DNA of 64,000 bases from Collybia mongolica (lineage: Eukaryota > Basidiomycota > Agaricomycetes > Agaricales > Clitocybaceae): the NCBI GenBank assembly GCA_013420905.1, contig JAAXNY010000001.1:4278001-4342000 (forward strand), written 5' to 3'. Shown here in pieces: positions 1-52,203 of the stretch. A program made the position numbers and the translations under genes. The notes beneath the pieces were generated by a model. It saw only the letters and a list, made by a program, of their open reading frames with translations. It searched no databases and was not told where the DNA came from. Every line of letters begins with the position of its first letter. The first letter of the stretch is position 1.

Positions 1-201
1 CTAAATCGAACCTGTTGAGAGATCATTGGAAAGGGCTTTGGCTAGTACTATTCAAAGCTTAGTGCTTCTAAGCACTTGAACCCGAACTCAAAACAGGCGA
101 TTCCTACTGTTCGTGTGTTGATTGTTAGGTTTGGTGTGTGTGTGTGTGAGGGATTACATTACATAGCATCAGCGCACTTATAGCCCAGGAGCCCCCTTTC
201 A
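1..201 (+). repeat. 3' portion of a Ty3/gypsy LTR (entering from the left edge)
   Basis: The stretch matches the last ~200 bases of the LTRs ending at 1746, 14767 and 16547, including the same ending CCCTTTCA, with a few substitutions and a longer TG run near 131-149. The remainder lies outside the window, so it may be a solo LTR or the 3' LTR of another copy. It abuts host coding sequence at 202 and is therefore another insertion into the same gene as the neighbouring elements. Confidence 0.93.
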
Positions 202-530
202 GCGTTATCAAGGCATTGATAAATTTCGAGGGAACTTCCCAGCCTTCGAGTGGCATATCCCGAATGTAGCTCACAAGCTCTTCAGTATTGTCGCGTGCTT
301 TGTGAGTACGTTGGTGCTTGGCCAAAATATAATTATGATTGTGGAAAGCATCCACCAAACGCCATTTAACCTGGTCTGGGTAGCTGACAACTAAGACCCA
401 GAAAGCTCGAACGACCACTGCGTGGATTTCAATGGCATCTGTATCGTTGGCATGACATGCAGAGATACTCACTCTCCGTAGTGTGTTTAGATAAGGCTCT
501 ATGAGACCAGGATCATTTTCAGCTAGACGC
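202..530 (-). pseudogene. C-terminal fragment of the broken HeLo-like/TPR gene
   Basis: On the minus strand this segment is open throughout and reads QRLAENDPGLIEPYL from its right end, the usual consensus of a kinesin-light-chain-like TPR helix in fungal proteins. The other part of the gene ends at 18300 in GREALALY. Removing all inserted elements and one copy of each target duplication joins ALALY to QRLAENDP in frame, giving a normal TPR unit. After the TPR remnant comes a helical tail containing EELVSYIRDMPLEGW. The fragment then runs into an LTR at 201, so the true C-terminus is separated again or lost. Seen directly: open frame and in-frame join. Inferred: the gene is inactive in this genome copy. 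Confidence 0.8.
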
Positions 531-1042
531 TGATAGGGCCCGAAATTGTTTGCACTTATAAAGTCAACAAGTAAGGCTATTAGTGTCATTTCTAATAACC
601 AAGTAAGCAGTAATAAAGGATTAGAGTCGAGCTCCGAGACGGCTAATCAGAGTGAACTAGTCTAATGGATAATACACTATCAGTACAGAGGACTATGAGT
701 ACGGTCTATTATTAGTCCTATTCACCATGCCCGGTTACAACCTCGGTGTCTTAGTTCATAAGTAACCGTTGTAGTATGATATCATTAGTCCGGGGATCAT
801 CATTAATAGGAGAAGTAATTGTAAATTCGGGACTTGCACAACCCGATCCTAGTCAGGGGTACTTGGTGTTAACTACCGGAAGTGACGGGACACCGTGAAT
901 AGCAACCAGGACAATCAGGAGGAGTAAACGACAGTGCCGCGCTGTTTTAAATAACAGAGCGCGCGGTCGGGACTTGATAAGAGTTTAGCCAGCTCTTTCA
1001 ATATTTGATAAGTAACCAGTAAACGACATAATTGGCACGCAT

Positions 1043-1054
1043 GGCGCGCGCGCC
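1043..1054. promoter_or_regulatory. GC palindrome in U3 of the gypsy LTR
   Basis: GGCGCGCGCGCC is a perfect 12-bp palindrome about 100 bp upstream of the LTR TATA-like box. The 3' LTR repeats it, and the diverged solo LTR keeps a palindrome with both arms changed (GGTGCGCGCACC at 15844-15855). Position and persistence suggest a promoter-proximal binding site; the function is inference. Confidence 0.4.
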
Positions 1055-1155
1055 AAGTTGTAGTAGACGCATCAGTATTGAATACAGATTCTTGGCGCGC
1101 GGGAGCGCGGTTCCGTGTAAAATTTACAATTCCATATGATATTTAGTTTGTACAT

Positions 1156-1163
1156 TATAAATA
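1156..1163 (+). promoter_or_regulatory. TATA-like box of the gypsy LTR
   Basis: TATAAATA lies 591 bp before the LTR end in an AT-rich stretch, the only strong TATA-like word in the LTR. It is kept in all three full LTR copies. It probably drives the genomic RNA, with the R region beginning a few tens of bases downstream. Confidence 0.55.
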
Positions 1164-1333
1164 GACTGTAGATGAGTAGCGCTAAGGCAAGGAATCTTGC
1201 CCCCACTTCGCGCGACTATAGAGTATACAAATCACATTTGTTAAAACACTATTGCGTGCCCGAATTAAGGATCAGATTGCTTCAACGTGTCTTGATTGGA
1301 ATTGATTGGAGAACCACAGAATTAAAGAAACTT

Positions 1334-1477
1334 AGTTCACTTGGAACTTAGTACCGTATTGTCCGTTGGAATTACTAGGCACTTGGCCTTAGTGCACTTG
1401 GCACTGTATTGTTTGATAAGTCACTTGGACTTATAGATCCGCTTGGGATCACTAATAATTGAACGTACACTTGGTAC
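1334..1477 (+). repeat. Array of six small hairpins with a constant CACTTGG loop
   Basis: Six units of the form stem-CACTTGG-stem follow each other: agtt/aact (1334-1348), agg/cct (1377-1389), agtg/cact (1391-1405), ataagt/acttat (1416-1434), gatc/gatc with loop CGCTTGG (1436-1450) and gtac/gtac (1465-1477). The stems differ between units but stay complementary, whereas the loop is nearly constant. The array is downstream of the TATA-like box, so it would lie in the leader and probably also the 3' end of the genomic RNA. A role in packaging, dimerisation or translation is conceivable but unproven. Confidence 0.6.
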
Positions 1478-1748
1478 TCAGTCTATTGGATCGAGAGATA
1501 TTATAAATATACCTAGCAGGTTTTTGAACCTGTGTTGAAGCTTTTGTCTAAATCGAACCCGTCGAGAGATCATTGGAAAGGGCTTTGGCTAGTACTATTC
1601 AAAGCTTAGTGCTTCTAAGCACTTGAACCCGAACTCAAAACAGGCGATTCCTACTGTTCGTGTGTTGATTGTTAGGTTTGGTGTGTGTGTGAGAGAGATT
1701 ACATTTCATAGCATCAGCGCACTTATAGCCCAGGAGCCCCCTTTCATC

Positions 1749-1769
1749 TGGAGCCCACCGCGAGGGTTC
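1749..1769 (+). other. Primer binding site of the gypsy element
   Basis: Two bases after the 5' LTR the sequence begins TGGAGCCCACCGCGAGGG, starting with the TGG expected to pair with a tRNA CCA end and continuing as a GC-rich complement. I could not assign the tRNA; the spacing of the implied T arm is off by about one base from a standard tRNA. Confidence 0.65.
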
Positions 1770-2202
1770 AGAGTTTTTGAATAGTCTAAAGAGAGCATCT
1801 TTCTTTGAAAAATATTATACCAAGACGAGTAACGTCGTCTACAAATTGAAGTAGAGCGGAGAAAGTTTAGTCAATCTGTCTCAAGAGCCACGCCCACAAG
1901 CCAGCTCGTCAAACAGACTAACTAATCAGCCACTTGCAAGACAAGTAGCTACAAAAACGCGGCAGACTAAAAATTCGCAAAACGCTGGAGTAACAGAGTC
2001 GTTACCACCTCCTAGGCGAGCGCGCACACGAGGATCTTCACAACCAGCCTTTGGATCTTCAGGACCAAGGCAAGTATTTAGAACTCCAGAGCCCTTAGGA
2101 AACATATCGACTACTAGTAGACCAGTAGCGCGCGGAAGATCGTCTGTAGTAAACCCAGTAGCAAACCCGAACTCGTTAGCTACTCAGAACCGTTCAGTAA
2201 TC

Positions 2203-3714
2203 ATGACTGAACCCCCTCGTAAATATATGCCCCAACCAGGCGTCCGTGATGCACCAGTATTCAAAGGAAAAGAGCCCACGGGTTTAATCCGGTTTCTGGA
2301 GCGAATGGAGGTCCTATGGAAGGAGTGTAACATTACAAATGATGAAGAAAAGAAGTTAATGTTGGGAAAATACGCAGACCTACAATCAGAGAATGAGTGG
2401 AGGGCATTAGACCACTATAAGACAGGCACTTGGACGGATTTCAAGACAGAGTTGATCTCTAGTTATCCGGAAGCACTCGATCAAGTAGAAGGATCAGTAG
2501 CCAAGTTAGAGGCAGTGTGTCGCGCCAACCCACGTATTGGAGTAACCGATGAGGCCGCGCTGAAAAAGCTGAAGCGTGAATTCAAAGCAGAATCTATTAA
2601 ACTCTTGGGAGTTAGGCCACCTATTATCTCTAACCGTGAATTAGTTACCAAGTTCTTGGGATGTCTAGACGAAGTCTTCAGATCCCAAGTACAAGGAAGG
2701 CTAACCCTGCTAGGGAATAATCAGTCTAAAGCTACACAGGCAGGACAAGCCGTTGCTACAAACAACCGAGCAGATCCTAATACTATTGCCGAAGCCGCCG
2801 CGCTCGCGCGACGAAAAGGGGATCAGTACGATCTGGAGGAAGTTATAGCAACTGCAATCAGCATTTCTGAAGGTGTAGCCAACATGAATATTCCAGACAC
2901 AAATAGATCGTTTATAACGTCCGTAACAGCAACAGCAGCGCCCAAAATCAAAGTAGAGATGGATGAAATAAAACAACAAATAGTTAATTTGTTAGACCGT
3001 CTCCAAGTAAATGAGAAGAATACGAGGAGTGGATTCGAGGATGTAATGAAAGCGCTTCAACAAGCAACTGTTCAGAACCATGCCACGAATAGCACACCCC
3101 AGCAGCATCAGTATCAGAATCAGTACGGAAAGCCTAAAGAAGGACAACCGCAAAGACCAAATGCGTATAAATGTCACTACTGTTTTACACCCGGACACTT
3201 CATAATGGCCTGTCCCGAGAAACAGAAACATTTTGAGGAAGGGAAAATAAAAACCAACGCAAATGGAGGAGTATGCTTACCAGACGGATCATATATTCCA
3301 AGAGAACCAGAAACGGTATCATTGAAAGATAAAGTGGAACACTTCCATTCAAAGAAGGTAGCGGCCCTTTATTACGGAGATGTCACAGAAGGACCCGCTC
3401 CAGGAGTATTGTCCGTTATGCAGTCACATAATGCAGTAGACAATAGTAACGACATTGGAACCTTGAAAGCCATAATGGCACAAATGGCACAATTTCAAGC
3501 GCAACAAATGTTAGGACAACAGAGCGCGCAAACCGCGCTGCCAGTAGCACCTCAGATGCAGAAACAGGAATATATAAATAATAACTATAATCCTACGGCA
3601 AAGAGCGCGCCGAACCCTGACATAGTAGCCTTACAAGCACAAATGAGTACTTTATTAGGGCAGGTAGCAGAACTCAATAACCAAAACAAGGTTAAAGAGT
3701 CGGGTTTCAATTAG
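2203..3714 (+). CDS. gag: Gag polyprotein of the gypsy element
   Basis: Encodes 503 residues. The N-terminal two thirds has the helical, charged character of a Ty3-type capsid (FKGKEPTGLIRFLERMEVLW near the start), followed by a Gln-rich linker and one zinc knuckle CX2CX4HX4C (CHYCFTPGHFIMAC, about residue 325), the nucleic-acid-binding signature of gag. The C-terminal ~80 residues are rich in Gln and Met. No upstream in-frame ATG was seen although the frame stays open back to about 1853, so 2203 is the likely start. It ends at TAG 3712-3714, within a short overlap with the protease frame and directly after a GGGTTTC heptamer. The product would assemble virus-like particles in the cytoplasm. 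Confidence 0.9.
   Translation: MTEPPRKYMPQPGVRDAPVFKGKEPTGLIRFLERMEVLWKECNITNDEEKKLMLGKYADLQSENEWRALDHYKTGTWTDFKTELISSYPEALDQVEGSVAKLEAVCRANPRIGVTDEAALKKLKREFKAESIKLLGVRPPIISNRELVTKFLGCLDEVFRSQVQGRLTLLGNNQSKATQAGQAVATNNRADPNTIAEAAALARRKGDQYDLEEVIATAISISEGVANMNIPDTNRSFITSVTATAAPKIKVEMDEIKQQIVNLLDRLQVNEKNTRSGFEDVMKALQQATVQNHATNSTPQQHQYQNQYGKPKEGQPQRPNAYKCHYCFTPGHFIMACPEKQKHFEEGKIKTNANGGVCLPDGSYIPREPETVSLKDKVEHFHSKKVAALYYGDVTEGPAPGVLSVMQSHNAVDNSNDIGTLKAIMAQMAQFQAQQMLGQQSAQTALPVAPQMQKQEYINNNYNPTAKSAPNPDIVALQAQMSTLLGQVAELNNQNKVKESGFN
3702..3708 (+). promoter_or_regulatory. Candidate -1 frameshift slippery heptamer (gag/protease)
   Basis: G GGT TTC fits the X XXY YYZ slippery pattern exactly in the gag frame (codons GGT at 3703 and TTC at 3706). 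It is four bases before the gag stop and inside the overlap (3696-3714) with the protease frame, which is the -1 frame. Slipping here would fuse gag to the protease at Gly-Phe-Gln-Leu. I did not establish a downstream pseudoknot. Confidence 0.6.
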
Positions 3715-3719
3715 GTCCG

Positions 3720-4925
3720 ATGAAGGAGGCTAAGGAACACGCTAGACCTACGACTAGGTCGCGTTCCAAGAGACAGCCAGAGGACCGAAGTAAAAATAGA
3801 AATAGTCGTCAAGAAAGTAACAATTTAGAGAGTAGTCAGGATAGTAGTGAAGAGGAGTTGGTAGCGCCGTCTCCTAGTAAAAAGAAAGTAAAATTTGTTG
3901 AACCATCAGTAAAGTCCCCAGTACGAAAAGAATTACCCTACATCGATGTGCCCGTGGTACCCTACATACCCCGGAGAACGGAACGCAACCCTGAACCAGT
4001 TGATCCGCTACCTAATTTTAACACTAAGCGCGGTCCGACTTATGAAACTAAGTCCCCGATAGAAGTAAAATTAAAAGGTGGTGATATAATTGCTAAAGTG
4101 TTAGACAACCCTATCACATTGACCACGGGAGAGTTAATGGGCTCGTCAAAAACCATTAGAGATGGAATAAAGAATATTGTAACTGCCAGACGTAAGTCCC
4201 TTACCCAAAGGGACGCTAACTTGCAAATAAACGGAATAGATGAGGAAGACGTCTTACCCTTTGGAGGGGACTGGGAACTTGATGATAACTACTTACGGCA
4301 TGACGCGCTACCAGTAGAGTCAATCCCATTCCAGTCTTTCTTCATCTCAGAGTATGACCGCGGCGGAATACCTAAGGGATCTATAATATGCGGGGACCCA
4401 GTCCTACAGTATTTAGAATCTTTACCAGCCGGGGAAGAGCCCAAACAGTTGTATGTAGCAAAAGAATCGGCCTCTTTGCGCGCAGTATATCCAGTAATAA
4501 ATGGGGTAGGAACGGAGGAATCTTTATTAGATGGGGGATCCCAAATAGTATCAATGGCTAAACAAACGGCTTTAGACTTAGATATTTCATGGGATCCGGA
4601 CGTTGTCATACACATGCAGAGTGCTAATAAACAAGTGGAGAAAACAGCGGGATTAGCGCGCAATGTCCCTTTCTTGTTTAATGACATGGCCATCTACCTC
4701 CAAGTACATATTATAAATTCACCCGCATACAAAGTATTGCTCGGGAGACCGTTTGATACGCTCACGGAAAGTCAGATCAAAAATGCTCGGGACGGGGGAC
4801 AAGTAGTCACTATCACGGACCCTAACACGGGACGAAGGTGTACTATTCCTACCCATGCAAAGGGATCACCGCCTAAGCTGTTGAAAAGACAACCGGAGCA
4901 GGATTTTCGGCCTTCGATGAATTAA
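3720..4925 (+). CDS. Retropepsin-like aspartic protease of the gypsy element
   Basis: 401 residues from the first ATG; the frame is already open from 3696. The first ~100 residues are basic and serine-rich, probably a linker. The protease core is at about residues 250-350: the active-site loop reads [11 protein letters not shown], a D-G-G variant of the usual D-S/T-G, and the conserved end of the fold is VLLGRPF. One catalytic Asp per chain means it would act as a dimer to mature Gag-Pol. It lies -1 relative to gag and ends at 4925, overlapping the pol frame (open from about 4876, again -1). A separate ORF for protease is less common than a single pol ORF. Translation by frameshifting rather than the ATG at 3720 is inference. 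Confidence 0.85.
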
Positions 4926-7900
4926 TCCAAAGTGATCAAGGAGAGCTAGCCGTAGAAATTGCTGAAGATGAGGACGGGAACTTTATTATAACGGGTTATA
5001 GACACCCTACTGATAAGCGGAATTTTGGTCACAAAGAACTTAGAGATGTCTTTTTGTCTAGAAGTGATGTAAACATGAATAGTACAGTACCTGAACGCGA
5101 ATTACTAGCCACGTACTTGGCTTCCGTAGATGAGCGCGATGGACCAGTAATAAACTACGAGCAGAACAGTAGGGACCCAGCAAGCACACCCACTAGACCG
5201 CTGACATACGCTCAAGAACAGCCCATGATCAATAAAGCTTTAAGTAAATTAAAGCAGTGGCAAATTGGCACAAACGAGCGCGGTCTTGGAACGGCAACAA
5301 GTGAAAAGTGTAATATTGAGACCATGGATCAGCTAGTAGGAAAGAAGTATAAACCAGTACATTTGAAAACAAAACCAACACTGGCGGACCTGCCTGATAA
5401 ATTTAGAATTATCAGAGATATAAAGGGCGACCCTTTAGCAGCCCTACCAGTTCTAACGCCTAACCCACCTCCGTTTAAACCAACTGGGAGGTACACTGAG
5501 GAAAGGCGCGCGGAATTCCAAAGAGTACATGAAGAAGAAAGCTTCTTAAAACCTAAAGAGATGGATATAATCCACGACTTTATGTGCAAACATAATGATG
5601 GTTTTGCTTGGAATGATAGTGAGCGCGGTAGTTTTAAGAAGGAATATTTTCCTCCCATCGAAATACCAGTAGTCCCACATACGCCGTGGACAGAGAGGAA
5701 CATTAGAATCCCACCAGGAATCTATGAAGATGTTTGTAAAATCATCAAGACAAAAATTGATGCAGGAGTCTATGAGAGATCCAATTCATCATACAGGTCT
5801 AGATGGTTTACCGTATTAAAGAAAGGCCCAGGAAAGAAGCTTAGAATTGTACATAGTCTAGAACCACTGAATGCAGTCACAATAGCGCACTCGGGTCTAC
5901 CACCCGCTACCGAAGAACTAGCAGAACACTTCGCAGGGCGCGCTTGTGGCGGAATGATGGATCTATATGTAGGATACGATGAGAGGCCTTTAGCAGAAAC
6001 CTCGCGCGATCTAACCACGTTCCAAACACCATTTGGCGCGCTGAGATTAGTAACACTCCCTATGGGATGGACGAATTCTGTTCCAATATTTCATGACGAT
6101 GTCACGTACATCCTACAGGATGAGGTACCACATGTCACAATACCCTATATTGATGATGTACCCGTGCGCGGTCCAGCAACGCGTTACGAACTACCGGACG
6201 GAACAGAAGAAGAGCTACCTGGTGCTCCAGGTGTTAGGCGCTTCTTCTGGGAACATATGCAAAATGTAAATCGCGTCGTACAGAGAATGAAGTATTCTGG
6301 AGGAACATTTTCAGGATATAAGTCTATGTTATGCGCAAGTGAAATTCTAGTGGTAGGACATAGATGTACATATGAAGGACGGAAACCTACTACAGATAGA
6401 ATCGGTGTAGTTGAAAGATGGGGACCATGCAAAGATGTCAGTGAAGTACGCGCTTACATGGGAACTATTGGTGTATGCAGGAATTTCATTAAAGACTTCG
6501 CCCGTATAGGTCAACCAATTCAAAAGTTAACTAGGAGTAGTGAACCTTGGATATGGGGGCCTGAGCAAGAAGAAGCGCAGCAGCTATTATTAGACGCACT
6601 TAAAAATAGCCCCGCGCTCCGTCCAATTAATTACACCTGGAATACGCCAGTAGTACTGTCAGTAGATACGTCATGGAAAGCCGTAGGCTACTATATCTAC
6701 CAGGAAGACCCTGATATACCTGGAAGAAAGCACTATGCTAGATTTGACTCGATAACTCTGAATGAGCGCGAAGCGCGCTTCTCACAACCCAAACGAGAGC
6801 TATTCGGATTAATGAGAGTTCTAATGGCATGTTATTATTGGTTTATTGGAGTACGAAATTTGGTAGTGGAAACGGATGCAAAGTACATTAAGGGGATGTT
6901 ATCAAACCCAAGTTTAGGACCTAATGCAACGGTAAATAGGTGGATCGATAGGATACTTATGTTCCACTTTACTTTGGTTCATAAAGCTGGTAAAGGCTTT
7001 GGCCCAGACGGTCTGTCAAGACGCGACGCGCGGCTAGGGGATCCTGTCTACCCGGACCCAGACGATGGTTACGACGAACCCTCAGGTCCTTTAAGGTTTA
7101 TCAACCCAACGGAAGGATTGGATGACCCTTTGGAACTGTCAGACTTTAAAGAGGAGATCGACACGCGCGGCGGATATCTATTCCAACTTGCAAAGGAAAT
7201 CTCTGATTTTGAAGTGGAAGTAAACAATGCCTGGGCTGGTGAAGCAGCATTTATCGGAGAAGTAAAACAGCACTTAGGTTTAGGACGGTTCGGTATTCAA
7301 AGAGAAGCTTATCTAAAGCAACTTGTAAATACTACTGTCATACCCAATGAAAAGTTTAAATACGACCCTAATGTAAGGGAAGTATATGATGAGTCTAAAC
7401 GGACACCTACGGCACAGGAACAGGATAAAAACCTACCTTTAATAAAAGAATGGTTAAAAAGACCACAAAAGAGACCAAAAGGAATGACAGATCGCGCCTA
7501 CCTAAAGTTTGCAAGGCAGGCGTCTAATTTCTTTTTGGATCCAGAAGGCAGGATGTATAGGAAAAATATCGATAGCGCGCACCAGCTTGTTGTTGATAAA
7601 AATCACCGAACATATATGATGAAGGCGTCTCACGATTCTGTTGGACATAGGGGTTTCTATGCAACAAAATCTTTAATAGATAAAAGATTTTGGTGGCCAG
7701 AAATGGAACGCGATGTATCATGGTATGTGAAGTCATGTCACATCTGTCAGACAAGGCTTTTAACTTTGTTGAGAATCCCTCCTGTTATAACCCACACACC
7801 GTCTATATTCCAAGTATTGCATGCGGACACCATGTATATGAGCCCATCGTCTAACGGTTATAAATACATTGTCCAAGGAAGATGTGCGCTGTCTTCATGG

Positions 7901-8920
7901 ATGGAAGGCGCGCCCCTCAAATCTGAGGACGGCAAGACCTTGGGAAGGTGGCTGTTCGAAGAAGTAATTTGTAGATGGGGTTCTCTAACGGAAATTGTAA
8001 CGGATAATGGTCCTGCCTTTGTCGCAGCCAAAGCGTGGCTGGAATCCAAGTATGGTATTACAGGAATAAGTATATCACCATACAATTCCAAAGGAAATGG
8101 GATCGCCGAGCGCGCACATTGGGATGTGCGTCAAGCTGTCTTCAAAGCTACAGGTGGTGATGTAAAGAAGTGGTACTACTTCTTCCACCATGTAATGTGG
8201 GCTGACAGGATTACTATACGGAGAGGGACGGGTTGCTCCCCCTATTTTATGATTACGGGCGCGCACCCAACCTTACCGTTAGATATCATTGAAGCCACTT
8301 GGTTAGTAAAGTTACCAGGAAAAATATTGACTACAGAGGAACTCATTGGGTTTAGAGCGCAGGCTCTAGCTAAGCACGTCCAGCATGTGGCCGATATGAG
8401 GAAACATATCAATATAGAAAAACGAAGGAGACTATTACAGTATGAGAAGGATCACAGCGCAACCATCAGAGACTATGATTTCAAACCAGGAAGTTTAGTA
8501 CTAGTTAGAAATACCGAGGTCGAAAGTTCGCTCGATAAAAAGCTGAAGCCACGGTACCTGGGACCAATGATAGTCCTGAGACGAAACCGCGGGGGAGCCT
8601 ATATTGTTTGTGAAATGGATGGATCGGTGTGGCAACATAAAGTGGGGGCGTTTAGGGTTATTCCCTATTTTGCTAGGAGTACAATTGAACTGCCGGATAA
8701 TCTGCAAGATCTAATAGACATCTCTAGCGAAACATTAAATGCTTTAGTGGAATCGAAAGATCCCGCTAATAGACAAGTTTATAAGGAGCGTGACTATACC
8801 TTTGACAGAGTCCAATTGGATCAGTCCGATTCAGAGTCAAGCTCTAGTGAAAACACTGAAGAGGGGATAGCGCCGGCGCTACCACAAACTACTATGTCAC
8901 ACCGGAAGTTGCATAAGTGA
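4876..8920 (+). CDS. pol: Pol: reverse transcriptase, RNase H and integrase of the gypsy element
   Basis: The frame opens at about 4876 and its first in-frame ATG is 5075, so the true beginning probably depends on frameshifting or reinitiation from the protease ORF. Domains in order: reverse transcriptase with catalytic IPYIDD (nt ~6147) and the upstream [13 protein letters not shown] block; RNase H with [17 protein letters not shown], a KRELFGL acidic block and ETDAKYI; integrase zinc finger H-X-H...C-X2-C ending CHICQ (nt ~7570-7750); DDE core with [14 protein letters not shown] and [10 protein letters not shown]; then a GPY/F-like module ending in [11 protein letters not shown]...GAYIV. 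No chromodomain is evident. All catalytic acids I could locate are present and there is no internal stop, so the enzyme may be active. Confidence 0.93.
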
Positions 8921-9067
8921 TAAATCAGTATGAAAAACAGAAGCAGTAAAGACAGTGTAAGCAACGAAGCTAAGTAGTAAGGACAGTGTTAAACCGAGTA
9001 AAGACAGTAATACAAAGGAGCGTGGGGAGGGACACCATAACTAAGGAGGAAGTTAATTGGACTACCC

Positions 9068-10445
9068 TCAAGCAGATATGAAGTCGTCTTCAACCTCGGG
9101 CAAGGGCACATCAGCCGGAGCTACCTCCTCTTTATCATTGTCATCCTGGTCATAGACTTCGGTAGCGCTTGCAGTGGCAGCCTCGTCAGAGCCTCCCTCC
9201 AGAGCGGCCTCGTTCATTAGACCGTTGAGGCAAGTAACCTCGTCCATAGTGGCGTCACGACGCTTCAATAAGAAGGACACTGTATGACTGATCTCCTCCA
9301 ACTCAGCGCGGTAGTTTAAAAGCATCCTACCAAGGGCTTGCTTGGTGTGTGACAAGGGATCGCCCGCGTCAGCAATCAAGCGCGCCCGCGCTAAGACTAC
9401 ATCGTGCTCCTTGGAGGGACGGAAGTCAATAAAGACATGAGTATCTGATACACAGTCAGTATAAAAATAGAACCATCTATTATTAGAAAACGTACCCTCA
9501 GCAGATGCCTTTGGATCTTCATCCGGGGTGTCCTGCCTCGTACGCTTTTTGGGACGAAGAGTGCTGCCGCGGTTGAGCTCGGAACGCTTACCGTCCTGTA
9601 GGAATAAGAAACAAAGTAATAGACAGAGCAAAAACAAGAATGGGTACCTTGATGGCAGCCTTTTCAGCCTTAGTCCTTTTGACACGGGGAACCTTAATGT
9701 TCTCCTTCTCCTTGCGACTACGGGTGATTGGTCCTTCACTAAGGAGACGACTAGTCACTGGCCCTGAGACAGTAGCGCTAGCCGTAGCGCCGGAATCAAT
9801 GACCATATTCTTGAGTAAAGAAGAGACGCCATTGAGTATGTCGCGCACTGACAGCGCGGTAGCTAAAAAGAAACATACCGAGTCAGTACCAGACATTTCA
9901 ATGTCACCGTCATATTCACCGCCAGCAATGACCTCGCCTGGAATAGCGGGACTATCCGCATCACCACCAGTAGCAGGGACCTAGTACCAGAAAATCATGG
10001 TTTAAGAACAGTACAGTGCAAGATAAGGTAAAAAGCACGCACCGCGGTTTGAGACAGGTGCTCGGTGCGGACCTTTTCACGGTGACGGTGAATAGCAGCA
10101 GTAAGAGTCACAATGTTGCGGTAGACGGGCTCTTGAAGTAACTCGGGGTATACATGTTGTAGTCCCTGGAATGCTTTACGGACGCCAAAGATAACATTCT
10201 GCCAGGACCGCTCCGTCAAAACCATTTTGGACTCAGTCAGGAGTAGCTGTAAATTGTAAAAGTTGTTACGATAACGGCGTATATAAGTTAATTGGTAAAA
10301 AGTGTACTGCGGTTTCGCCTAACTTCCGGACGCTGACCCTTTGTTCAACAAGGGTGTCCATCGATAAACGAGCTTGAAAGGTGTGCCACTGAGCTTGGAC
10401 CATCTTGAAGTTCTCGATGTCTTGATAGTTGGGGGGGCTAGTCAT
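9068..10445 (-). CDS. Antisense cargo gene B of the gypsy element, spliced, unknown function
   Basis: I read six exons: 10445-10308, 10246-10043, 9980-9879, 9809-9648, 9595-9496 and 9444-9068. Every junction has GT...AG borders and the phases agree throughout, giving about 360 residues from MTSPPNYQDIENF to DDFISA. The protein starts with a helical segment, has a basic middle block rich in Lys/Arg (RSRKEKENIKVPRVKRTKAEKA followed by PKKRTRQD, possible nuclear localisation signals), a helical region around KQALGRMLLNYRAELEEI, and a very acidic C-terminus. I recognise no enzyme domain. It lies head-to-tail behind gene A on the same strand, with ~700 bp between them. A nuclear, DNA- or chromatin-associated role is inference from composition only. 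Confidence 0.75.
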
Positions 10446-11151
10446 AATGATGCAGAGGAAATTGATTCTTCGAACCAGAACGTTGTAAAGAGAGTATAAT
10501 AGAGTTGGGCGATGTCTTGGGACAAAAAGCACAGCCAGTGCCCTTTTTATACCTCTACGACTAGAGAAGTGCTACCCAGTCTCTCATTCGTTGCGCGCGT
10601 TCTATCCCCAGAAAAATCTATACATTTCAACTGAACAGGTCCGAGACGCGTGCCTAATTGAAATGCTGGGCCCAATTAAAAAAAAAAAAAGGAGCTCCGT
10701 AAAAATTCATGTGGAGCGCGGCAGTGTCCGCATGACAACTGGGACAGTTGTTATCAGTGTTGAGGGGGAGATGGGTATAAGCAAAATCGAATTGGAAAAA
10801 CCTACCAAGGTTACAAGGATTGAAATAGATTGTCTATAAAAAGTCAGTGATCGCGCCACGGTTTTTAATGATCGAGAGAATTGCACCAGAATTAAACCGT
10901 ACTATTTATAACTTAAGTAGCCGGGGCAAGGGCGGAAGCTTTCTTATGAAGACAATAGAACAACGGCAAAAACCAATTGTATTGTTTAAAGTCCAGGGGA
11001 CTGTATATAAGATATGTGTTGGACTTCAATTAAAGAATTGAAGCCCAACGAAAGGCGGGGGAATATGTAAGTAAAAAAAAAAAAAAAAGGGCACTAGGGC
11101 CCAGGGAAACACAGATATATATATAAAACGTAGGGGGGGGGCGCGGCGCGG
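10446..11151. other. Spacer between the two antisense cargo genes
   Basis: Contains the presumed promoter of gene B and the 3' end region of gene A. A-tracts occur near 10680-10692 and 11073-11088, and there is a TATATATATA run near 11114. Small open frames on either strand show no codon pattern or recognisable similarity. No further gene is supported. Confidence 0.5.
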
Positions 11152-13101
11152 CTACTCCTCCTCGCTGTCAGGAACGGACGCAGAAGATCTTGACGACGAA
11201 GAACTGTCATCAACCTCTACTTCTTCTTCCAAGGGCGGCCAAGGGAGATTCTGGAAGTCCGCGTAGAAGAGGAGGGCGCTCTCCGTGGCTGGCGTAGTCA
11301 GCAAGAGGTTTTGAAGGCCCTCCAGGCCTTCCTCCTCGTACAACCTACCAATGGTGCCAACTATGCGCGCCAACAAGGAGTCGCGCATTTCAAGCGCGCG
11401 GTTAGCGGCCTGAATGACCTCCGCGGCAAGGGTGTCCGCGTCGCTGAGCTGAGCATAGGCTTCAGCAACCGCTAGTAGAATAAGTAAAATCAGTAGTAAA
11501 CAAAAAGACAGAAAGAAGATGGCTTACTAGAAATGCCCGCACCAAGCATGGGCCCCAGATCCTCACGGAGCCTAGCGCGCTTCTGGGGAGTGAGGCTGAA
11601 GCTGCACTTCCCCTTCTTGGCGGTGGCGCATTCCACGCACGGTTTACCCCAACCGTTGAAGGTGCACTCAATGTCGCCGCGGGTGGCGCACATTGTGCAA
11701 GGATAGCCCACCTAGTAAAAATGATCAGTAACAAGAAATAAAGTAGTAATAAACATACGGAAGAGCGCCGCGGCGCAAGGTCAGCCAGCAGGGAGGTAAT
11801 AGGGGACTGTAGCGGCGTCAGCTCCCGGTTGGGAACCAGCGCGTGCTTGCGGCGTGTCGCCTGTGCCCTATCCCTAGAGCGAGTGGTCTTACGCGACCGA
11901 CGAGGAGAAGGGGCCGCGGGAGGCAACAACTCCGCGAACCCCTCTTGAGCCAACTGGCGGGCGATCTCATCATCGAAGAGCCGAAGTTCAGGGACTTCAA
12001 CCTTCACCAGCGGCTGCCCAGAGGACTAAGGAGATAAAGATGAGTAAAAGTAAATGACTTCAAGAGAGAAAAGAGACATACCGGGCCTGCTTCCGAGGGA
12101 CGCGGCGCGGAAGCACTGCCAGTCCCCTGGGCGCGCGACATGTCGGACTAGAATTTTGAAATCAAGTCAGCAATAATGTGAAACTCGTAAAGTAAAAGAT
12201 ATACCTGGGGAACCGCACGGCCTTTGCCCTTGGACCCAGCTGTACGCTTCCGCTTGAGGGGCTATTAAAATAAGTCAACTACCGAAGAAAAGTAATAAAA
12301 AGCAGTAATAAACGAACCGCGGGTACCAAGACCGGGGAGCGCGCCGGCAAGGGCGTGGCGGACCAACTGTCCCGGTACTGATGGTAACGGCGCGGTGCGC
12401 CAACCATGCGAGGAGGGACGAGGAAAGTATCCTGAAAGATACTTTCACCATTGTCGCGCTCGAAGCGCGACCCCACCTGGTCCAGGACTTGCTCCACAGT
12501 GGGAGCCTGGCCCTAAAGTAAAAGGTAGTCAGCTTGACAAGGGCAGGCAGAGTAAAGAAGTAAACAAGTCACTTACCAGAAGAATGGAATTGTGGCCCAG
12601 GTCAGTCGATATGACCGTGCGCCAGGAAGACCACGAAGCCTCGCGCGCGTCGACAGGGATGCGCATCACTTGAAGGTGAAGCGCGCGCAGGAGGAGAATA
12701 GCCGGATATGGCAGCGAAAAACGCGCGCCACGGACCACGCCAGTGATGGCATCCTGAGACCAGTAAATAAGTAAAAGGTTTTAATAAGTAAAAGATGGGC
12801 GTACGATGAGCATGGAGCAGTGATCGACGAAGTCAATCAACTCGTCGAGGTCAAGGGGGCCCTGATGGTCCATACGGGGCGCGAGTTCCTCGGCCATAAT
12901 AATCCACCCTTGCTCCATGGCGACAAAGACATCGCCCTCGGCATCTTCAAGGAGGTCGGAAAATGAGGGGACCGGCTGGTCCACATAGACCATAGTGGGG
13001 GAACGGCCCTCAGTCGGTAGAATCGCGGCAGAGAGCGAGAGAGACAGCGCGGAAGGCGAGCGCAGAGCACGAGCCATGGCGGAAGTAGAAGTGGAAGACA
13101 T
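11152..13101 (-). CDS. Antisense cargo gene A of the gypsy element: Zn2Cys6-like cysteine-cluster protein
   Basis: Eight exons can be read: 13101-12805, 12753-12577, 12512-12318, 12261-12205, 12147-12082, 12025-11759, 11711-11528 and 11471-11152. All have GT...AG introns of 46-64 nt and consistent phases, giving about 520 residues from MSSTSTSAMARAL to a DSEEE end. Exon 7 encodes CTMC-X7-C-X8-CVEC-X7-C, close to the fungal Zn2Cys6 binuclear cluster (CX2CX6CX5-12CX2CX6-8C), preceded by a basic block in exon 6 (RRSRKTTRSRDRAQATRRK) and followed by a helical region and a Ser/Glu-rich acidic tail. This is the layout of a DNA-binding regulator, although the cluster is internal rather than N-terminal. 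It could instead be a gag-like nucleic-acid-binding protein. Confidence 0.8.
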
Positions 13102-13540
13102 TTCTGTTTGAAAAGGTTGGAGCGTTTGAGCGATGCAGATAGCAAAGAGATTTAGAAATGGGCTATAAAGTCCAAATTGTCTAAAACTTAGCAAGGACGC
13201 GAGCTTTTTAAAACGCACAACCCTGCATTGCGAAGCTCTAAAGAACAAACAGGAGTACCGATCTCTTGCTGAAGTGTCAGAAACATAACGAGAAAAATGT
13301 CCAGATGACTGAAATATCTGTAAAGCGATGTCCAAATGTCAAGTACTCTCTCAGGAGACGTATATAACTGTCACGATCCTGATGGGAAGTAAACCTCTGG
13401 GCTCGATCCCAACATCGCGCGCCTACCTGTCTAAAAGCGGAACCGTTGTAACATTGTACTGAAAGATTAGACGCGTGCAGACCCGAAGTATTGGACCAAC
13501 CTGCCGGCAAAGAGAGACTGAGGACAGTCTACATTTGTGG
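13102..13540. other. Probable antisense promoter region of cargo gene A
   Basis: No gene is supported in this 440-bp stretch between the start of gene A and the polypurine tract. It is the only unique sequence upstream of gene A inside the element, so it should hold the antisense promoter unless transcription begins inside the 3' LTR. I saw no clear TATA box on the minus strand near the start. Confidence 0.4.
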
Positions 13541-13551
13541 TATGGGGGAGA
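13541..13551 (+). other. Polypurine tract of the gypsy element
   Basis: TATGGGGGAGA is directly adjacent to the 3' LTR start at 13552, the position where plus-strand DNA synthesis is primed. Confidence 0.8.
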
Positions 13552-14767
13552 TGATAGGGCCCGAAATTGTTTGCACTTATAAAGTCAACAAGTAAGGCTA
13601 TTAGTGTCATTTCTAATAACCAAGTAAGCAGTAATAAAGGATTAGAGTCGAGCTCCGAGACGGCTAATCAGAGTGAACTAGTCTAATGGATAATACACTA
13701 TCAGTACAGAGGACTATGAGTACGGTCTATTATTAGTCCTATTCACCATGCCCGGTTACAACCTCGGTGTCTTAGTTCATAAGTAACCGTTGTAGTATGA
13801 TATCATTAGTCCGGGGATCATCATTAATAGGAGAAGTAATTGTAAATTCGGGACTTGCACAACCCGATCCTAGTCAGGGGTACTTGGTGTTAACTACCGG
13901 AAGTGACGGGACACCGTGAATAGCAACCAGGACAATCAGGAGGAGTAAACGACAGTGCCGCGCTGTTTTAAATAACAGAGCGCGCGGTCGGGACTTGATA
14001 AGAGTTTAGCCAGCTCTTTCAATATTTGATAAGTAACCAGTAAACGACATAATTGGCACGCATGGCGCGCGCGCCAAGTTGTAGTAGACGCATCAGTATT
14101 GAATACAGATTCTTGGCGCGCGGGAGCGCGGTTCCGTGTAAAATTTACAATTCCATATGATATTTAGTTTGTACATTATAAATAGACTGTAGATGAGTAG
14201 CGCTAAGGCAAGGAATCTTGCCCCCACTTCGCGCGACTATAGAGTATACAAATCACATTTGTTAAAACACTATTGCGTGCCCGAATTAAGGATCAGATTG
14301 CTTCAACGTGTCTTGATTGGAATTGATTGGAGAACCACAGAATTAAAGAAACTTAGTTCACTTGGAACTTAGTACCGTATTGTCCGTTGGAATTACTAGG
14401 CACTTGGCCTTAGTGCACTTGGCACTGTATTGTTTGATAAGTCACTTGGACTTATAGATCCGCTTGGGATCACTAATAATTGAACGTACACTTGGTACTC
14501 AGTCTATTGGATCGAGAGATATTATAAATATACCTAGCAGGTTTTTGAACCTGTGTTGAAGCTTTTGTCTAAATCGAACCCGTCGAGAGATCATTGGAAA
14601 GGGCTTTGGCTAGTACTATTCAAAGCTTAGTGCTTCTAAGCACTTGAACCCGAACTCAAAACAGGCGATTCCTACTGTTCGTGTGTTGATTGTTAGGTTT
14701 GGTGTGTGTGTGAGAGAGATTACATTTCATAGCATCAGCGCACTTATAGCCCAGGAGCCCCCTTTCA
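13552..14767 (+). repeat. 3' LTR of the gypsy element
   Basis: 1216 bp, starting TGATAGGG and ending CCCTTTCA; side-by-side reading with 531-1746 showed no difference. It is followed by ACGC, the same four bases that precede the 5' LTR. Confidence 0.95.
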
Positions 14768-14773
14768 ACGCTG

Positions 14774-15099: not shown

Positions 15100-17291
15100 C
15101 TAGTCACTGTCATCATCGACAATCTGGCGGCGACGCAAGGGGGCAATGACAGGGTTCACTGGTATTTTCGGCTGGTTCCGTTTCTTGGACTCGAGGTGGT
15201 AGGGGTTGGTCGTAGCGAGGATCTTGTTCCATTTCTGGCCTGGGGTCGCTAGCTCCTCAGAGTAGTGGGCTGTCGCTTCAGACCAAACTCCTGTAAATCC
15301 AGCGGTATCCTTGACAAAGAAGCCCGTTGATAGGGCCCGAAATTGTTTGCACTTATAAAGTCGACAAGTAAGGCTATTAGTATCATTTCTAATAACCAAG
15401 TAAATGGTAATAAAGGATTAGAGTCGAGCTCCAAGACGGCTAATCAGAGTGAACTAGTCTAATGGATAATACACTATCAGTACAGAGGACTATGAGTACG
15501 GTCTATTATTAGTCCTATTCACCATGCCCGGTTACAACCTCGGTGTCTTAGTTCATACATAAGTAACCGTTGTAGTATGATATCATTAGTCCGGGGATCA
15601 TCATTAATAGGAGAAGTAATTGTAAATTCGGGACTTGCACAACCCAATCATAGTCAGGGGTACTTGGTGTTAACTACTGGGAGTGACGGGACCCCGTGAA
15701 TAGCAACCGGGACAATCAGGAGGAGTAAATGGCAGTGCTGCGCTGTTTTAAATAACAAAGCGCGTGGTCGTGACTTGATAAGAGTTTAGCCAGCTCTTTC
15801 AATATTTGATAAGTAACCAGTAAACGGCATAATTGGCACGCATGGTGCGCGCACCAAGTTGTAGAGGATGCATCAGCATTGAATACAGATCCTTGGCGCG
15901 CGGGAGCGCGGTTCCGTGTAAAATTTACAATTCCGTATGATATTTAGTTTGTACACTATAAATAGACTGTAGATGAGTAGCGCTAAGGCAAGGAATCTTG
16001 CCCCCACTTCGCGCTACTATAGAGTATACAAATCACATTTGTTAAAACACTATTGCGTGCCCGAATTAAGGATCAGATTGCTTCAACGTGTCTTGATTGG
16101 AATTGATTGAAGAACCACAGAATTAAAGAAACTTAGTTCACTTGGAACTTAGTACCGTATTGTCCATTGGAATTACTAGGCACTTGGCCTTAGTGCACTT
16201 GGCACTGTATTGTTTGATAAGTCACTTGGACTTATAGATCTGCTTGGGATCATTAATAATTGAACGTACACTTGGTACTCAGTCTATTGGATCGAGAGAT
16301 ATTATAAATATACCTAGCAGGTTTTTGAACCTGTGTTGAAGCTTTTGTCTAAATCAAACCCGTTGAGAGATCATTGGAAAGGGCTTTGGCTAGTACTATT
16401 CGAAGCTTAGTGCTTCTAAGCACTTGAACCTGAACTCAAAACAGGCGATTCCTACTGTTCGTGTGTTGATTGTTAGGTTTGGTGTGTGTGTGTAAGGGAT
16501 TACATTTCATAGCATCAGCGCACTTACAGCCCAGGAGCCCCCTTTCACCGTCGCCCAGCATTTCAGGGCTCGTTCAACCTATGATGACAGGTGAGTATCT
16601 CGATGATTGCCAGGGTTGCTAACTTACTGCAGTAGCTGCCATCACCAGTGCGCCTTGCGGATTGTCATCGATCTTGAACTCGGGCGCAAGATTGTCGACT
16701 ATGGCAACGTGATGCATGAATGTTTCCATCACCATCCGTGACTGGAATGAGCCTTTATACCTCTGTACAATATTAGCAAGGAAGTGAGAATAATTGAAAG
16801 TCACTCACAATGTCGTCGGGATCAGCCTCATCAACACTCATCCAAAGAAAGGGGGAAGGGTTGTCGAGGCTGGGTGGGACCGCCCACTCCACATAATTGC
16901 GCCGCTCCTCCGGATCATTATAGATGGGATCTGAATCCCAGAAAGTCTGAATGGCGGTGCCTGCCGCATTCGCAAAGTTGCTGCGCCATTCGTATGTCCT
17001 CTGCCTAAGCTGGTGCAGGCTGTCAATTAGAAGGAAAACTCATTGAACTGGACAATGTACCAGAGCAAAAAGCGGGTCCTTGGTAGCCGAGAAGACATGA
17101 GAATGGTTGGGGAAGATGTTGCCCCAGAGATTCTGCGCCTCAGTGACATGGTTAACCAGGATCCAGGGATTGGCAGCCATCTGCCACGTCATCGCTGACA
17201 ACAACTGCACAGCCGCCGCCAATGTCGCCAACGATGGTATATTTGGCTTCCATGATCTTTGCCTGTTTATTAATAATCCGACTCTTTTCAA
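15100..17291 (-). pseudogene. DUF6532-like gene, interrupted by a solo LTR
   Basis: Minus-strand exons: 17291 down to a donor near 17059 (MKRVGLLINRQRSWKP...KDPLFAL), then LRQRTYEWRSNFANAAG...DEADPDDI, then RYKGSFQSRMVMETFMHHVAI...AATA, then VERALKCWATGFFVKDTAG to a stop at 15100-15102. Motifs such as RYKGxFQxRMVMETFxHH and a C-terminal ALxxW...W...Y block resemble the DUF6532 family, which is greatly expanded in agaricomycetes and has no established function. The solo LTR (15328-16547) splits the last exon: GCGACGG|GGC joins in frame as Ala-Thr-Gly once the LTR and one CCGT are removed. The start at 17291 is the first Met of the first exon seen; a longer N-terminus may have been lost on capture. 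Family call is from memory of consensus. Confidence 0.6.
15328..16547 (+). mobile_element. Solo LTR of the same gypsy family
   Basis: 1220 bp with the same TGATAGGG...CCCTTTCA ends as the full element, flanked by CCGT on both sides (15324-15327 and 16548-16551), so internal sequence was lost by LTR recombination. It differs from the young LTRs at dozens of positions, many of them C-to-T or G-to-A at CpG, and has a 4-bp CATA repeat insertion near 15556. It is older than the full-length copy. Confidence 0.93.
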
Positions 17292-34684: not shown

Positions 34685-35479
34685 GTGCCCGCCATTCATC
34701 ATCCTAATGACCCTGATCCTCCACCTCTGGGGGGGTCAGCTGATCTACTTCCTACCATGTTCTTTCATCCCCTGCCATCAAAATCCCCATCACCAGCCCA
34801 TACACCCTCACGACAGTCCATCCTAAGGGCTCTTGACATCAAGAAGACTAAGCTGAGAAGAAAAGCTTTCTCTTCCATCCACCCATCTCCAGTCAATAGT
34901 GATGATGAGATGTTTGATGCCCTCGCAGACCTCAATAAGGAGGATGCCACCATTACCCCAGGGACTGCCAAGGGAAAGGGTAAAGACAGCCAGGGAGATG
35001 CTGAGATGGTTGACATCTCAGGCATTGACCCCAATGTAATCGTAGATGACCTTGAAGGGGGTTACTTCTTTGCATTCTGTAAGGACCCCACAACATGGGA
35101 CATGGATACCAGTGCCGCCTCCACTTCTGTTTGCAGGATCAACAAGTTCATCAAATTTGCTGAGCAGAACAAGAGGATGTGGAACACTGAGGAATCAGAC
35201 AGCCTAGTTGAGGCATCTGGCCACCTCATACAGACCCTGGTGGAACAGGGGTTCATCTGTAATTCCCTACATGGCCATGACCCTAGGTCCACCACATGGG
35301 CATTCGTTGACAGCATTGCAAGCTCTGTTTGCACTGCCCTATCCAAGGAATGGAAGGCACACCATGCCCCCATGCCCCCACCCATAAACCCACCAGGACA
35401 GCTTCCTAACCTGAACAAGTCCTATGCATATTGTAACTTGGACCCCACAGGACTGGGCTGCAGAGAGGGTTACAATTGA
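34685..35479 (+). pseudogene. LINE ORF1-like remnant
   Basis: 264 residues starting MPAIHHPNDPDPPPL. It is Ser/Pro-rich at the N-terminus, acidic in the middle (DDLEGGYFFAF), with a helical segment around RINKFIKFAEQNKRMWNTEE. There is no zinc knuckle or RNA-binding fold that I can see. The frame ends just after the deletion junction near 35450-35470, where it meets ORF2 sequence in another frame. ORF1 identity is inferred from its position. Confidence 0.5.
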
Positions 35480-36460
35480 ATACTCCCCAAAACCGACAGG
35501 CAAGAAAGAGGAGAGGAAGGCTGCATTCAAGGAATTTGGATTAGTATTAACTAATTGGATCAATGATGCTAAACGTACCCCAGGGCATATTGCCATCATA
35601 TGCAACAGGTCAGTCTCACACCACCCAGACCACCAAGCCACTGGTGCTTGGAGAGTATGGGGAGGTGGGTCACTTTTCAGTGGCACTGCCCCATGGGGGA
35701 TGCCACATCAGACAATGCAGAAGCCTTTGCCATCTCCAGGGGGATAGATGAAGCCTTCCGCATCCCAAACCTAGACACATCTAAAATAGATGTCTTCTCG
35801 GACTCTGTGAATGCAATCAAACTGGTCTTAGACCCATCACACCACACGGCCCACAAATCAGCTGTCAACATGACATCAAAACTCGCCTTGTGGCTAACTA
35901 TCAAGCCCAATGCTACCATCACGCTACATCACATGCCAAAAGCATGTGAAGTCAGAGAACACCTTTACACCCACGAGGCTGCCACTAACTTAGAGGTGGC
36001 CCATGGGGAAGTTAAGCACACTACCCTTGCAAAAGCAAGGGCAAACGCTGTACTATGTATGACAGATGCTTGGAGCATTCTGGCCAAGCAGAAGGAGTAC
36101 ATAGGAGCAAATTTCCTGCATCTCCATGAACATGGAAAGCAATTGACTCCAAGCCACCTGAAAGGGGGGACTTGGATAGGAAAAATCTCTACAGAGACTA
36201 GTAAAACCATCCGACTGGCACAAGCTCTCACTGGACATGCACCAATCGGCGCTTACAGACAACACTTCCTTAAAGAGAAGGAGACGTACATGTGCAACTG
36301 TGGCCTTGGAAAGGAGACCATTGATCATGTGTTCAGGTACTGCCCACTCTATGAGAGGGCAGAATGTCCTGGGAGGAAACTAACCCTTGTGTGGGTTAGC
36401 AACTTCTTACATGACAACCCAGCGGCCTTCAGTGTCTTCCGGGAACCATGCATAGAATAG
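35467..36460 (+). pseudogene. LINE ORF2 remnant: RNase H and C-terminal CCHC motif
   Basis: The first part lies in another frame (FKEFGLVLTNWINDAKRTPGHIAIIC...ATGAWRVWGGG), and a shift at about 35690-35705 leads into DATSDNAEAFAISRGIDEA and IDVFSDSVNAIKLV, the second and third acidic blocks of an RNase HI domain. The first catalytic Asp appears to be Asn (IICNRSVS). The C-terminus has LTGHAPIGAYRQHFLKEKETYMCNCGLGKETIDHVFRYCPLY, the C-X-C...H...C motif that ends I-clade LINE ORF2 proteins. Stop at 36458-36460. Frameshift, missing catalytic residue and absent RT make it nonfunctional. Confidence 0.8.
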
Positions 36461-51842: not shown

Positions 51843-52203
51843 TTGGTAGAATGATTGAGCAAAGCTTTATACACGAATCTTCCTTCCCTTAGGGCCTGAA
51901 GTTCGCCCGCAGTGCGCTGCGGGCAGCTTATCACCAAGGATACGGAAAAAGCGCAGGTGAAGGGAACAGGAAAGGTGCGCAGCATACATAGTAGGATTTC
52001 CAGGTACAAAATGCGGCGCAAGGTTGGTACCTGCCAAGATAATCATATTATTTTAGGTACCCATTCTAGGCACGTCCAGCTGCATGTAACGCCGTTTTAC
52101 GTCTCAAATCAGTTGACTTGCCCACCCAAGCTCTTCTCCTTGCTTCAACAGATATTACATATGTTCAGAAATAACCTATCCATTATAAGCGTTACATACT
52201 ATC

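Follow-up and report, generated by a model that had tools for sequence, protein, structure and literature searches.

Because their replication runs through RNA, retrotransposons should lose introns, and this locus raises the question of how such an element could hold two genes whose 11 introns persist in every one of the 32 copies compared. The window (the whole stretch of 64,000 nucleotides of Collybia mongolica DNA that was analyzed) contains, at 531-14767, what is by its sequence a recently inserted Ty3/gypsy LTR retrotransposon (Table 1). The two direct LTRs, each 1216 bp long with TG...CA ends, showed 0 differences, and a target duplication of 4 bp, ACGC, was present on the outer flanks of both (527-530 and 14768-14771), in agreement with the initial annotation of a gypsy element with identical LTRs and a recent insertion. 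The domain order of pol, together with its similarity to Ty3, places the element in Ty3/gypsy. In Pfam, the RNase H and integrase zinc-binding domains of pol passed the cut-off and rve and RVT_1 fell below it; in the PDB, pol matched Ty3 Gag-Pol (7q5b; E value of 6.3e-28) and, further downstream, PFV integrase (E value of 8.1e-10). The gag zinc knuckle matched zf-CCHC_2 (PF13696; E value of 6.5e-06) at 26.3 bits, just under the cut-off of 27, and the 401-amino-acid ORF in the expected place of the aspartic protease had no match in Pfam. The complement of positions 1752 to 1769, within the putative primer binding site, had 75 exact matches in the genome, one of them in this element, and a search for the corresponding tRNA using one guessed extension returned 0 matches. 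An Rfam search also gave 0 matches.

Two genes, A and B, occupy the minus strand between pol and the 3' LTR, as originally proposed, and both gene models are open without internal stops. Every intron begins with GT and ends with AG (seven of 47 to 64 nt in A and four of 51 to 62 nt in B). The eight exons and ~520 residues first assigned to A were upheld, whereas B has five exons rather than six and 383 residues rather than ~360. A sixth exon in B was rejected: the 69-nt GTATGT...CTCAAG stretch (9878-9810) that would be the additional intron stays open and in frame when translated, and a Collybia nuda protein, P0001, conserves its later portion, SVRDILNGVSSLLK, so we treat the stretch as coding. 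An alternative 16-nt intron (GTATGT...TTTTTAG) was judged by reading to be too short, and it breaks the frame. The earlier length suggests that the 69-nt stretch had been removed as an intron (383 minus 23 residues). With five exons in B, A and B together have 11 introns and 22 splice sites, not the 12 junctions counted previously. P0001 is 63% identical to B at 100% coverage, and its alignment is gap-free over B junction 1 and, by eye, over junctions 3 and 4. The homologue search proposed for both proteins thus succeeded for B; none was found for A outside the C. mongolica genome, with one search scoring the best 7997 word-sharing candidates.

Table 1. Features of the element, in window coordinates
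Feature	Position	Strand	Remarks
5' LTR	531..1746	+	1216 bp, TG...CA, 100% identity with 3' LTR
Putative primer binding site	1749..1769	+	TGG-start stretch just inside 5' LTR
gag ORF	2203..3714	+	503 aa, open frame, CCHC zinc knuckle
Second sense ORF, protease position	3720..4925	+	401 aa, open frame
pol ORF	5054..8920	+	1288 aa, RT - RNase H - integrase
Antisense gene B	9068..10445	-	383 aa, 5 exons, no internal stop
Gene B exons	10445-10308, 10246-10043, 9980-9648, 9595-9496, 9444-9068	-	
Spacer A-B, downstream of A, putative B promoter region	10446..11151	-	
TATA-like box TATAAAAAGGG	10541..10551	-	About 105 bp upstream of B's ATG
Antisense gene A	11152..13101	-	520 aa, 8 exons, no internal stop
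Gene A exons	13101-12805, 12753-12577, 12512-12318, 12261-12205, 12147-12082, 12025-11759, 11711-11528, 11471-11152	-	
Gene A exon 7	11528..11711	-	Six-cysteine cluster C-x2-C-x7-C-x8-C-x2-C-x7-C
Spacer gene A / 3' LTR, putative A promoter region	13102..13551	-	
3' LTR	13552..14767	+	1216 bp; purine-rich tract just before, ACGC after

A copy search that scored 38 of 152 candidates gave 39 rows, comprising the window and 37 other places (one of them twice); 36 of the 37 were fetched and aligned, and a half copy on contig C23 was left out. Gene A was fully intact in 31/37 aligned copies, and gene B was intact in 32 of the 35 that hold it, figures that overstate the family-wide rate because the 36 fetched copies are the nearest ones to the window. 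Some copies may be duplicates of one another (L031 and L032 have nearly equal profiles). Counts over 32 copies leave out L040 and L043 to L046, which are truncated or have large deletions, and counts over 28 further leave out the broken copies L035, L037, L041, and L042. All 352 introns checked in the 32 copies were present, and 0 had been lost. In 31 copies compared with the window, the splice dinucleotides varied at 1 of 44 positions versus 68 of 492 intron-interior positions (one-sided Fisher P = 0.014), and distinct indel events numbered 5 in 2715 bp of exons, 14 in 613 bp of introns, and 47 in the 706 bp of the A-B spacer. Because the same exon-intron layout recurs in dozens of copies, with constant splice sites and rare exon indels, the structures of A and B are beyond chance. 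The more diverged copy L048 has a complete A in which all 7 introns are GT-AG, and it keeps B up to the end of the locus, with 3 GT-AG introns; compared with the window, its indels fall in introns and the spacer. Its differences at codon positions 1/2/3 were 35/25/71 in A and 13/3/16 in B, a weaker third-position excess.

Divergence of the 36 copies from the window at codon positions 1/2/3 was 0.011/0.012/0.049 for A and 0.008/0.004/0.019 for B. In the 28 unbroken copies, dN/dS was 0.195 for A and 0.211 for B, and with broken copies included (32 copies) the values were 0.192 and 0.215. Variants were also compared with a null of 5000 simulations in which mutations were matched for CpG and type. 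For variants found in at least two copies, the nonsynonymous/synonymous ratio relative to this null was 0.21 for A (0/5000 simulations reached so low a value) and 0.30 for B (14/5000); single-copy B variants, with a ratio of 0.64 (402/5000), were indistinguishable from neutral. Excluding broken copies slightly lowers nonsynonymous counts, and the ratios are similar when these copies are included (0.34 for A and 0.48 for B over all variants). Across eight copies, dN/dS was 0.24 for A, 0.33 for B, and 0.46 for pol (last 446 codons), while in a set of only three copies it was 0.45, 0.41, and 0.46 (whole pol), so that A and B were then no more constrained than pol. The coding constraint on A and B is comparable with that on pol. 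Purifying selection therefore appears, from these substitution patterns, to maintain A and B between copies. The suggestion that the genes are not fossils is borne out by their intactness in most close copies and by dN/dS of about 0.2; stops, which neutral decay would have left, were rare in the close copies, though L047, a remote locus, has decayed to a fragment that lacks A as well as B exon 1.

Such constraint could in principle fall on antisense transcription instead of protein, with antisense or double-stranded RNA limiting copy number, and retroelement antisense RNA can indeed be non-coding and regulatory, according to the available part of PMC7264820. Selection at the RNA level would not favor synonymous change, the keeping of frame, or splice-site conservation, and we consider this explanation improbable; an RNA-level effect may operate in addition to selection on the proteins.

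The family comprises about a hundred loci in this one genome, some loci being cut by contig ends or decayed. Among the best 69 of 379 pol candidates, which were the ones scored, 63 were followed by B on the opposite strand, in 58 cases at 1122 to 1129 bp. Family copies without the genes were thus not the rule, and the placement, together with the identical LTRs, agrees with the proposal that the genes belong to the element and arrived with its recent insertion. B exon 2 was missing behind six of the 69 pol matches, one of which does have B exon 5. A lay upstream of 93 of 105 B matches, 87 times at a distance of 1.2 to 1.45 kb (105 of 108 exon 2 matches were used, three weak ones with E above 1e-5 being dropped). 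In most copies, A and B are antisense ORFs between pol and the 3' LTR.

Were A and B instead another mobile element, nested antisense and amplified with its gypsy host, they might be found apart from each other and from pol, and the partner was absent within 8 kb for 16/110 A and 12/105 B matches, while 23 of 80 B exon 5 matches had no listed pol alongside. Missing partners are expected, since only the best 69 of 379 pol candidates were scored and loci end at contig ends or are decayed fragments; moreover, B exon 5 lies 153 to 154 bp behind pol in 57/69 matches, and no transposase in Pfam was matched by either A or B, making a nested element quite improbable. That A and B are recently transduced host genes, passengers of no value to the element, is highly improbable: their introns would imply entry as genomic DNA and not as spliced mRNA, but the genes sit at fixed places in most scored copies, are diverged yet constrained between copies, have a B homologue 63% identical in another mushroom, and in exon searches of this genome form one family (77 to 100% identity) plus five short or weak matches, with no clear separate host gene.

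Our preferred reading, which we hold at a probability of about 0.8, is that this recent Ty3/gypsy element is split by strand, with an intron-free gag, protease-position ORF, and pol on the sense strand and the selected, intron-rich, expressed genes A and B on the antisense strand. It builds on what the DNA shows: how the two genes are structured, their occurrence in most scored copies, their retained introns, the signature of purifying selection, and the young insertion. The sense strand would be copied through RNA, and the genomic RNA would carry the A and B introns only as reverse complements, which would go unspliced and survive reverse transcription. The initial annotation had offered antisense orientation as the explanation for intron survival, and the 352/352 introns kept in 32 copies are as it predicts; the pattern fits an LTR retrotransposon able to keep introns by coding on the antisense strand. 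From the integrated DNA copy, we infer transcription of the opposite strand from element-borne promoters, followed by splicing and production of two proteins. Both would matter to the spread of the element, since purifying selection keeps both.

The element-borne antisense promoters that the initial annotation called for are plausible. The TATA-like 11-mer upstream of B, TATAAAAAGGG, was identical in 32/32 copies, and the 40-bp bin containing it was no more conserved than neighboring bins. The A-B spacer around it is the most indel-rich part of the antisense block, with variation mostly in the A-side 200 bp. The spacer between A and the 3' LTR aligned at 94 to 100% in 33/36 copies searched (one over 294 bases only); within it, a 25-bp bin with TTTATAG (13185-13161) had 0 variable positions, as did the outermost bin.

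Neither A nor B matched Pfam at an E value of 1, and Pfam and PDB sequence searches with A, B, or P0001 yielded nothing beyond chance. The exon 7 cluster of A, intact in 36/37 aligned copies, is a possible zinc-binding domain. The Zn2Cys6 (Gal4-type) family pattern has six cysteines as two C-x2-C pairs and two singles, with a first loop of 6 residues. Exon 7 shares the two pairs and two singles, but its first loop has 7 residues and the Pfam profile was unmatched up to an E value of 10; no other Pfam profile recognized the cluster up to that threshold, and its PDB sequence matches were at chance level. Structure models of exon 7 (mean pLDDT of 56.8) and of P0001 (40.2) were poor and were left out of fold searches. 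The A protein has basic stretches and an acidic tail beside the six-cysteine cluster; the B protein, probably helix-rich, has a basic middle and an acidic tail. With odds somewhat short of even, we guess that A and B are nuclear accessory proteins that bind DNA, chromatin, or the preintegration complex and would regulate transcription or integration, a role that for A is deduced from its composition and a single cysteine pattern. The suggestion made at the outset, that the genes control transposition, target choice, or host silencing, is likewise a guess.

Antisense accessory ORFs are already known from Grande, Retand, and the fungal Boty (brtn). As far as the available text of these sources describes them, the plant-type ORFs (Grande and Retand; aORF-3R) resemble A and B in place, orientation, and presence in most copies, and gene23 of Grande is transcribed antisense from a promoter of its own, its product being nuclear (PMC7264820, PMC11963269). 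The word "intron" occurs 0 times in the available text of these two papers, whereas A and B carry introns; the Retand TRP28 domain (PF04195) is absent from A and B (Pfam, E value of 1), and the host here is a fungus. In the accessible portions of PMC7264820 and PMC8365987, brtn is an extra antisense gene of a fungal gypsy element in Botrytis cinerea and Sclerotinia; compared by description only, it is one gene in an ascomycete host, against two genes here, and it was not among the matches listed in homologue searches with A and B. Tcn1-like fungal gypsy elements, likewise compared by description only, share with this element an additional ORF, of unknown function according to a figure legend in PMC2864245. 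The nearest spliced case is HBZ of HTLV-1, a protein gene lying antisense in an LTR element, close to the 3' LTR; HBZ transcripts initiate within the 3' LTR and include two spliced variants (PMC1459196, in the part available). Here, by comparison, there are two genes with 7 and 4 introns, whose coding parts and starts are wholly internal, and no bZIP domain of the HBZ kind was matched in Pfam at an E value of 1. A literature search, weak for subscription papers, returned no intron-containing antisense LTR-retrotransposon gene besides spliced HBZ and no multi-intron pair, and the accessible text of PMC3248453, PMC5408684, PMC12477816, and PMC12810828 describes no such intron-containing genes.

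A bolder version of the strand-split reading, which we think rather unlikely, is that the strands form two compartments, one serving replication and free of introns, the other bearing genes whose introns are useful. Introns would limit protein to integrated, correctly transcribed DNA and never genomic RNA, and splicing could give the accessory mRNAs export, stability, or escape from RNA-based silencing; mushroom genes often need splicing for mRNA export or stability. The genes would be host derived, captured at the DNA level by read-through from a convergent host gene, and would have become essential regulators.

The element provides a natural test system for the role of antisense accessory genes in LTR elements, those of plants included, for the route by which intron-bearing genes enter an element that replicates through RNA, and for whether splicing shields element mRNAs from silencing. 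Mushroom gene catalogues, perhaps including that of Collybia nuda, may list such element-borne proteins as unknown genes.

The Ty3/gypsy element that carries genes A and B, together with other features of the window, is described in the table below. The LTR identity claimed by the initial annotation held over the full length of both repeats, and ACGC is present on each outer side of the element. A solo LTR and the end of another LTR of the same family bring the number of family insertions to three in 17 kb.

Features of the window (coordinates are window positions)
Feature	Position	Strand	Description
LTR end	about 1-202		same family as the element
Ty3/gypsy element	531-14767	+	flanked by LTRs
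LTRs	531-1746 and 13552-14767	+	1216 bp, identical, TG...CA ends
gag		+	zinc knuckle, score slightly below Pfam cut-off
401-aa ORF		+	protease position
pol		+	1288 aa; RNase H, integrase, Ty3-like RT
Gene B	10445-9068	-	between pol and 3′ LTR; 5 exons, 383 aa
Gene A	13101-11152	-	between pol and 3′ LTR; 8 exons, 520 aa
Solo LTR	15328-16547		same family, 96% identical, CCGT on either side
Two neighboring ORFs	34685-36460	+	264 and 286 aa; second, by eye, resembles an RNase H domain from a decayed retroelement
Two long ORFs	37872-41894	-	451 and 860 aa; by eye, resemble a Copia-type element
Two neighboring similar ORFs	50823-53193	-	339 and 329 aa; tandem duplicate pair by eye

The introns of A and B are 47 to 64 nt long and GT-AG in every case, and 9 of the 11 (9068-13101) are in phase 0, a higher share than usual. 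Introns this short, together with a homologue of B in Collybia, would suggest a mushroom-type fungus as the host. The proposed model of A stood in exon number, approximate length (~520 residues) and strand, while B has one exon fewer than the six first assigned to it. The sixth exon was rejected: the stretch apparently taken for an intron has no stop in frame, and P0001, a homologous protein of Collybia nuda, shows conservation of the later part of this stretch.

We searched the genome (46 Mb, 26 contigs, with the window at C1:4278001-4342000) for the further family copies that the initial annotation had proposed to look for, and both genes proved to recur with the element. Among 69 pol matches scored out of 379 candidates, B exon 2 lay behind pol on the opposite strand in 63 (58 of these at 1122-1129 bp) and B exon 5 lay 153-154 bp behind it in 57. 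A exon 7 was found upstream on the same strand for 93 of 105 B exon 2 matches, 87 of these at 1.2-1.45 kb. These 105 strong matches were all stop-free, with identity down to 79%, and three more were weak; A exon 7 had 110 matches, 107 of them stop-free, two of them short with just 65-70% identity. The genome-wide exon search revealed no clear separate host gene for A or B. In a diverged copy (L048), A retains each of its 7 introns and B is kept over the fetched extent; a decayed fragment (L047) lacks A and exon 1 of B.

The window and 36 other copies of the A-B block were aligned. A was fully intact (start, frame, stop and splice sites all present) in 31 of the 37; two others were frameshifted, one combined loss of a donor site with an in-frame deletion, one had a large deletion and two were cut by contig ends. 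B was intact in 32 of the 35 copies holding it. Across 32 copies no intron was lost (0/352), and 1 of 44 splice-dinucleotide positions was variable versus 68 of 492 interior intron positions (one-sided Fisher P = 0.014). Relative to the window, exons (2715 bp) had 5 distinct indels, introns (613 bp) had 14 and the spacer (706 bp) had 47.

Divergence at codon position 3 was two to five times that at positions 1 and 2, an excess that was weaker in L048. The dN/dS comparison suggested earlier gave 0.195 for A and 0.211 for B across 28 unbroken copies. Nonsynonymous/synonymous ratios were compared with 5000 simulations drawing the same mutation types from the same gene, with CpG handled separately. 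For variants in at least two copies, the ratio relative to expectation was 0.21 in A (0/5000 as low) and 0.30 in B (14/5000); for single-copy variants it was 0.45 (0/5000) and 0.64 (402/5000). Selection while the element replicates, followed by relaxed decay after insertion, predicts such a difference, with shared variants more constrained than private ones. In eight copies, on the basis of few changes, dN/dS of A (0.24) and B (0.33) lay below that of the last 446 pol codons (0.46); in three copies the values were 0.46 for whole pol, 0.45 for A and 0.41 for B. We put the probability that A and B are real, selected genes carried by the element at about 90%.

Divergence from the window varied along the block. 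Loci L011-L014 were <1% different in A and spacer, L015-L025 matched in A and differed by 3.8-5.0% in the spacer, and L026-L039 differed by 3.8-5.2% in both, with B at 0.6-1.6% throughout. A alleles fall into two classes (at <1% or about 4% divergence from the window), as do the spacers, and three of the four combinations occur. By these patterns, the copies are mosaics, for which template switching between co-packaged RNAs would be the natural reading; such switching would fit an A-B block that travels through RNA with its introns retained.

Of the 7994 candidates scored in the homologue search, also proposed earlier, P0001 alone matched B at E ≤ 0.001 (63% identity, full length covered); two protein searches returned no homologue of A. 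Pfam gave no match near its cut-off for either. P0001 is gap-free over B junction 1 (alignment with exon pieces 1, 2, 3 and 5) and also spans junctions 3 and 4 (by-eye comparison including exon 4); junction 2 falls within a poorly conserved stretch. In B exon 3, an in-frame GTATGTTTCTTTTTAG (9863-9878) resembles both termini of a former intron that are now translated; the C. nuda protein lacks nine residues in this area.

The introns would be present in genomic RNA as reverse complements and would not be spliced there, and integrated DNA copies would express A and B from the opposite strand. About 105 bp upstream of the B ATG, TATAAAAAGGG is the same in 32/32 copies; the 40-bp bin holding it is no better conserved than its neighbors, so that it is weak evidence for a B promoter. 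A candidate promoter of A is less evident. Location and antisense orientation are shared with ORFs of plant Grande, RIRE2, Retand and PvRetro13 and fungal Boty (brtn), as described in three reports (PMC7264820, PMC11963269, PMC8365987). HBZ of HTLV-1 is likewise antisense, and spliced (PMC1459196). Antisense ORFs at this place are already known; searches of the open-access literature found no mushroom gypsy family that carries a selected antisense pair, one gene with seven introns and the other with four. For the plant counterparts, domains related to DNA or chromosomes are described, as is a nuclear protein (PMC7264820). In A, 36 of 37 copies retain a six-cysteine cluster, and inspection by eye shows stretches of basic residues and an acidic tail; the C. 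nuda homologue of B is helix-rich in a low-confidence predicted structure. These features and the plant counterparts favor a nuclear regulatory role, and we tentatively suggest that A and B may be nuclear accessory proteins regulating transcription or integration of the element.
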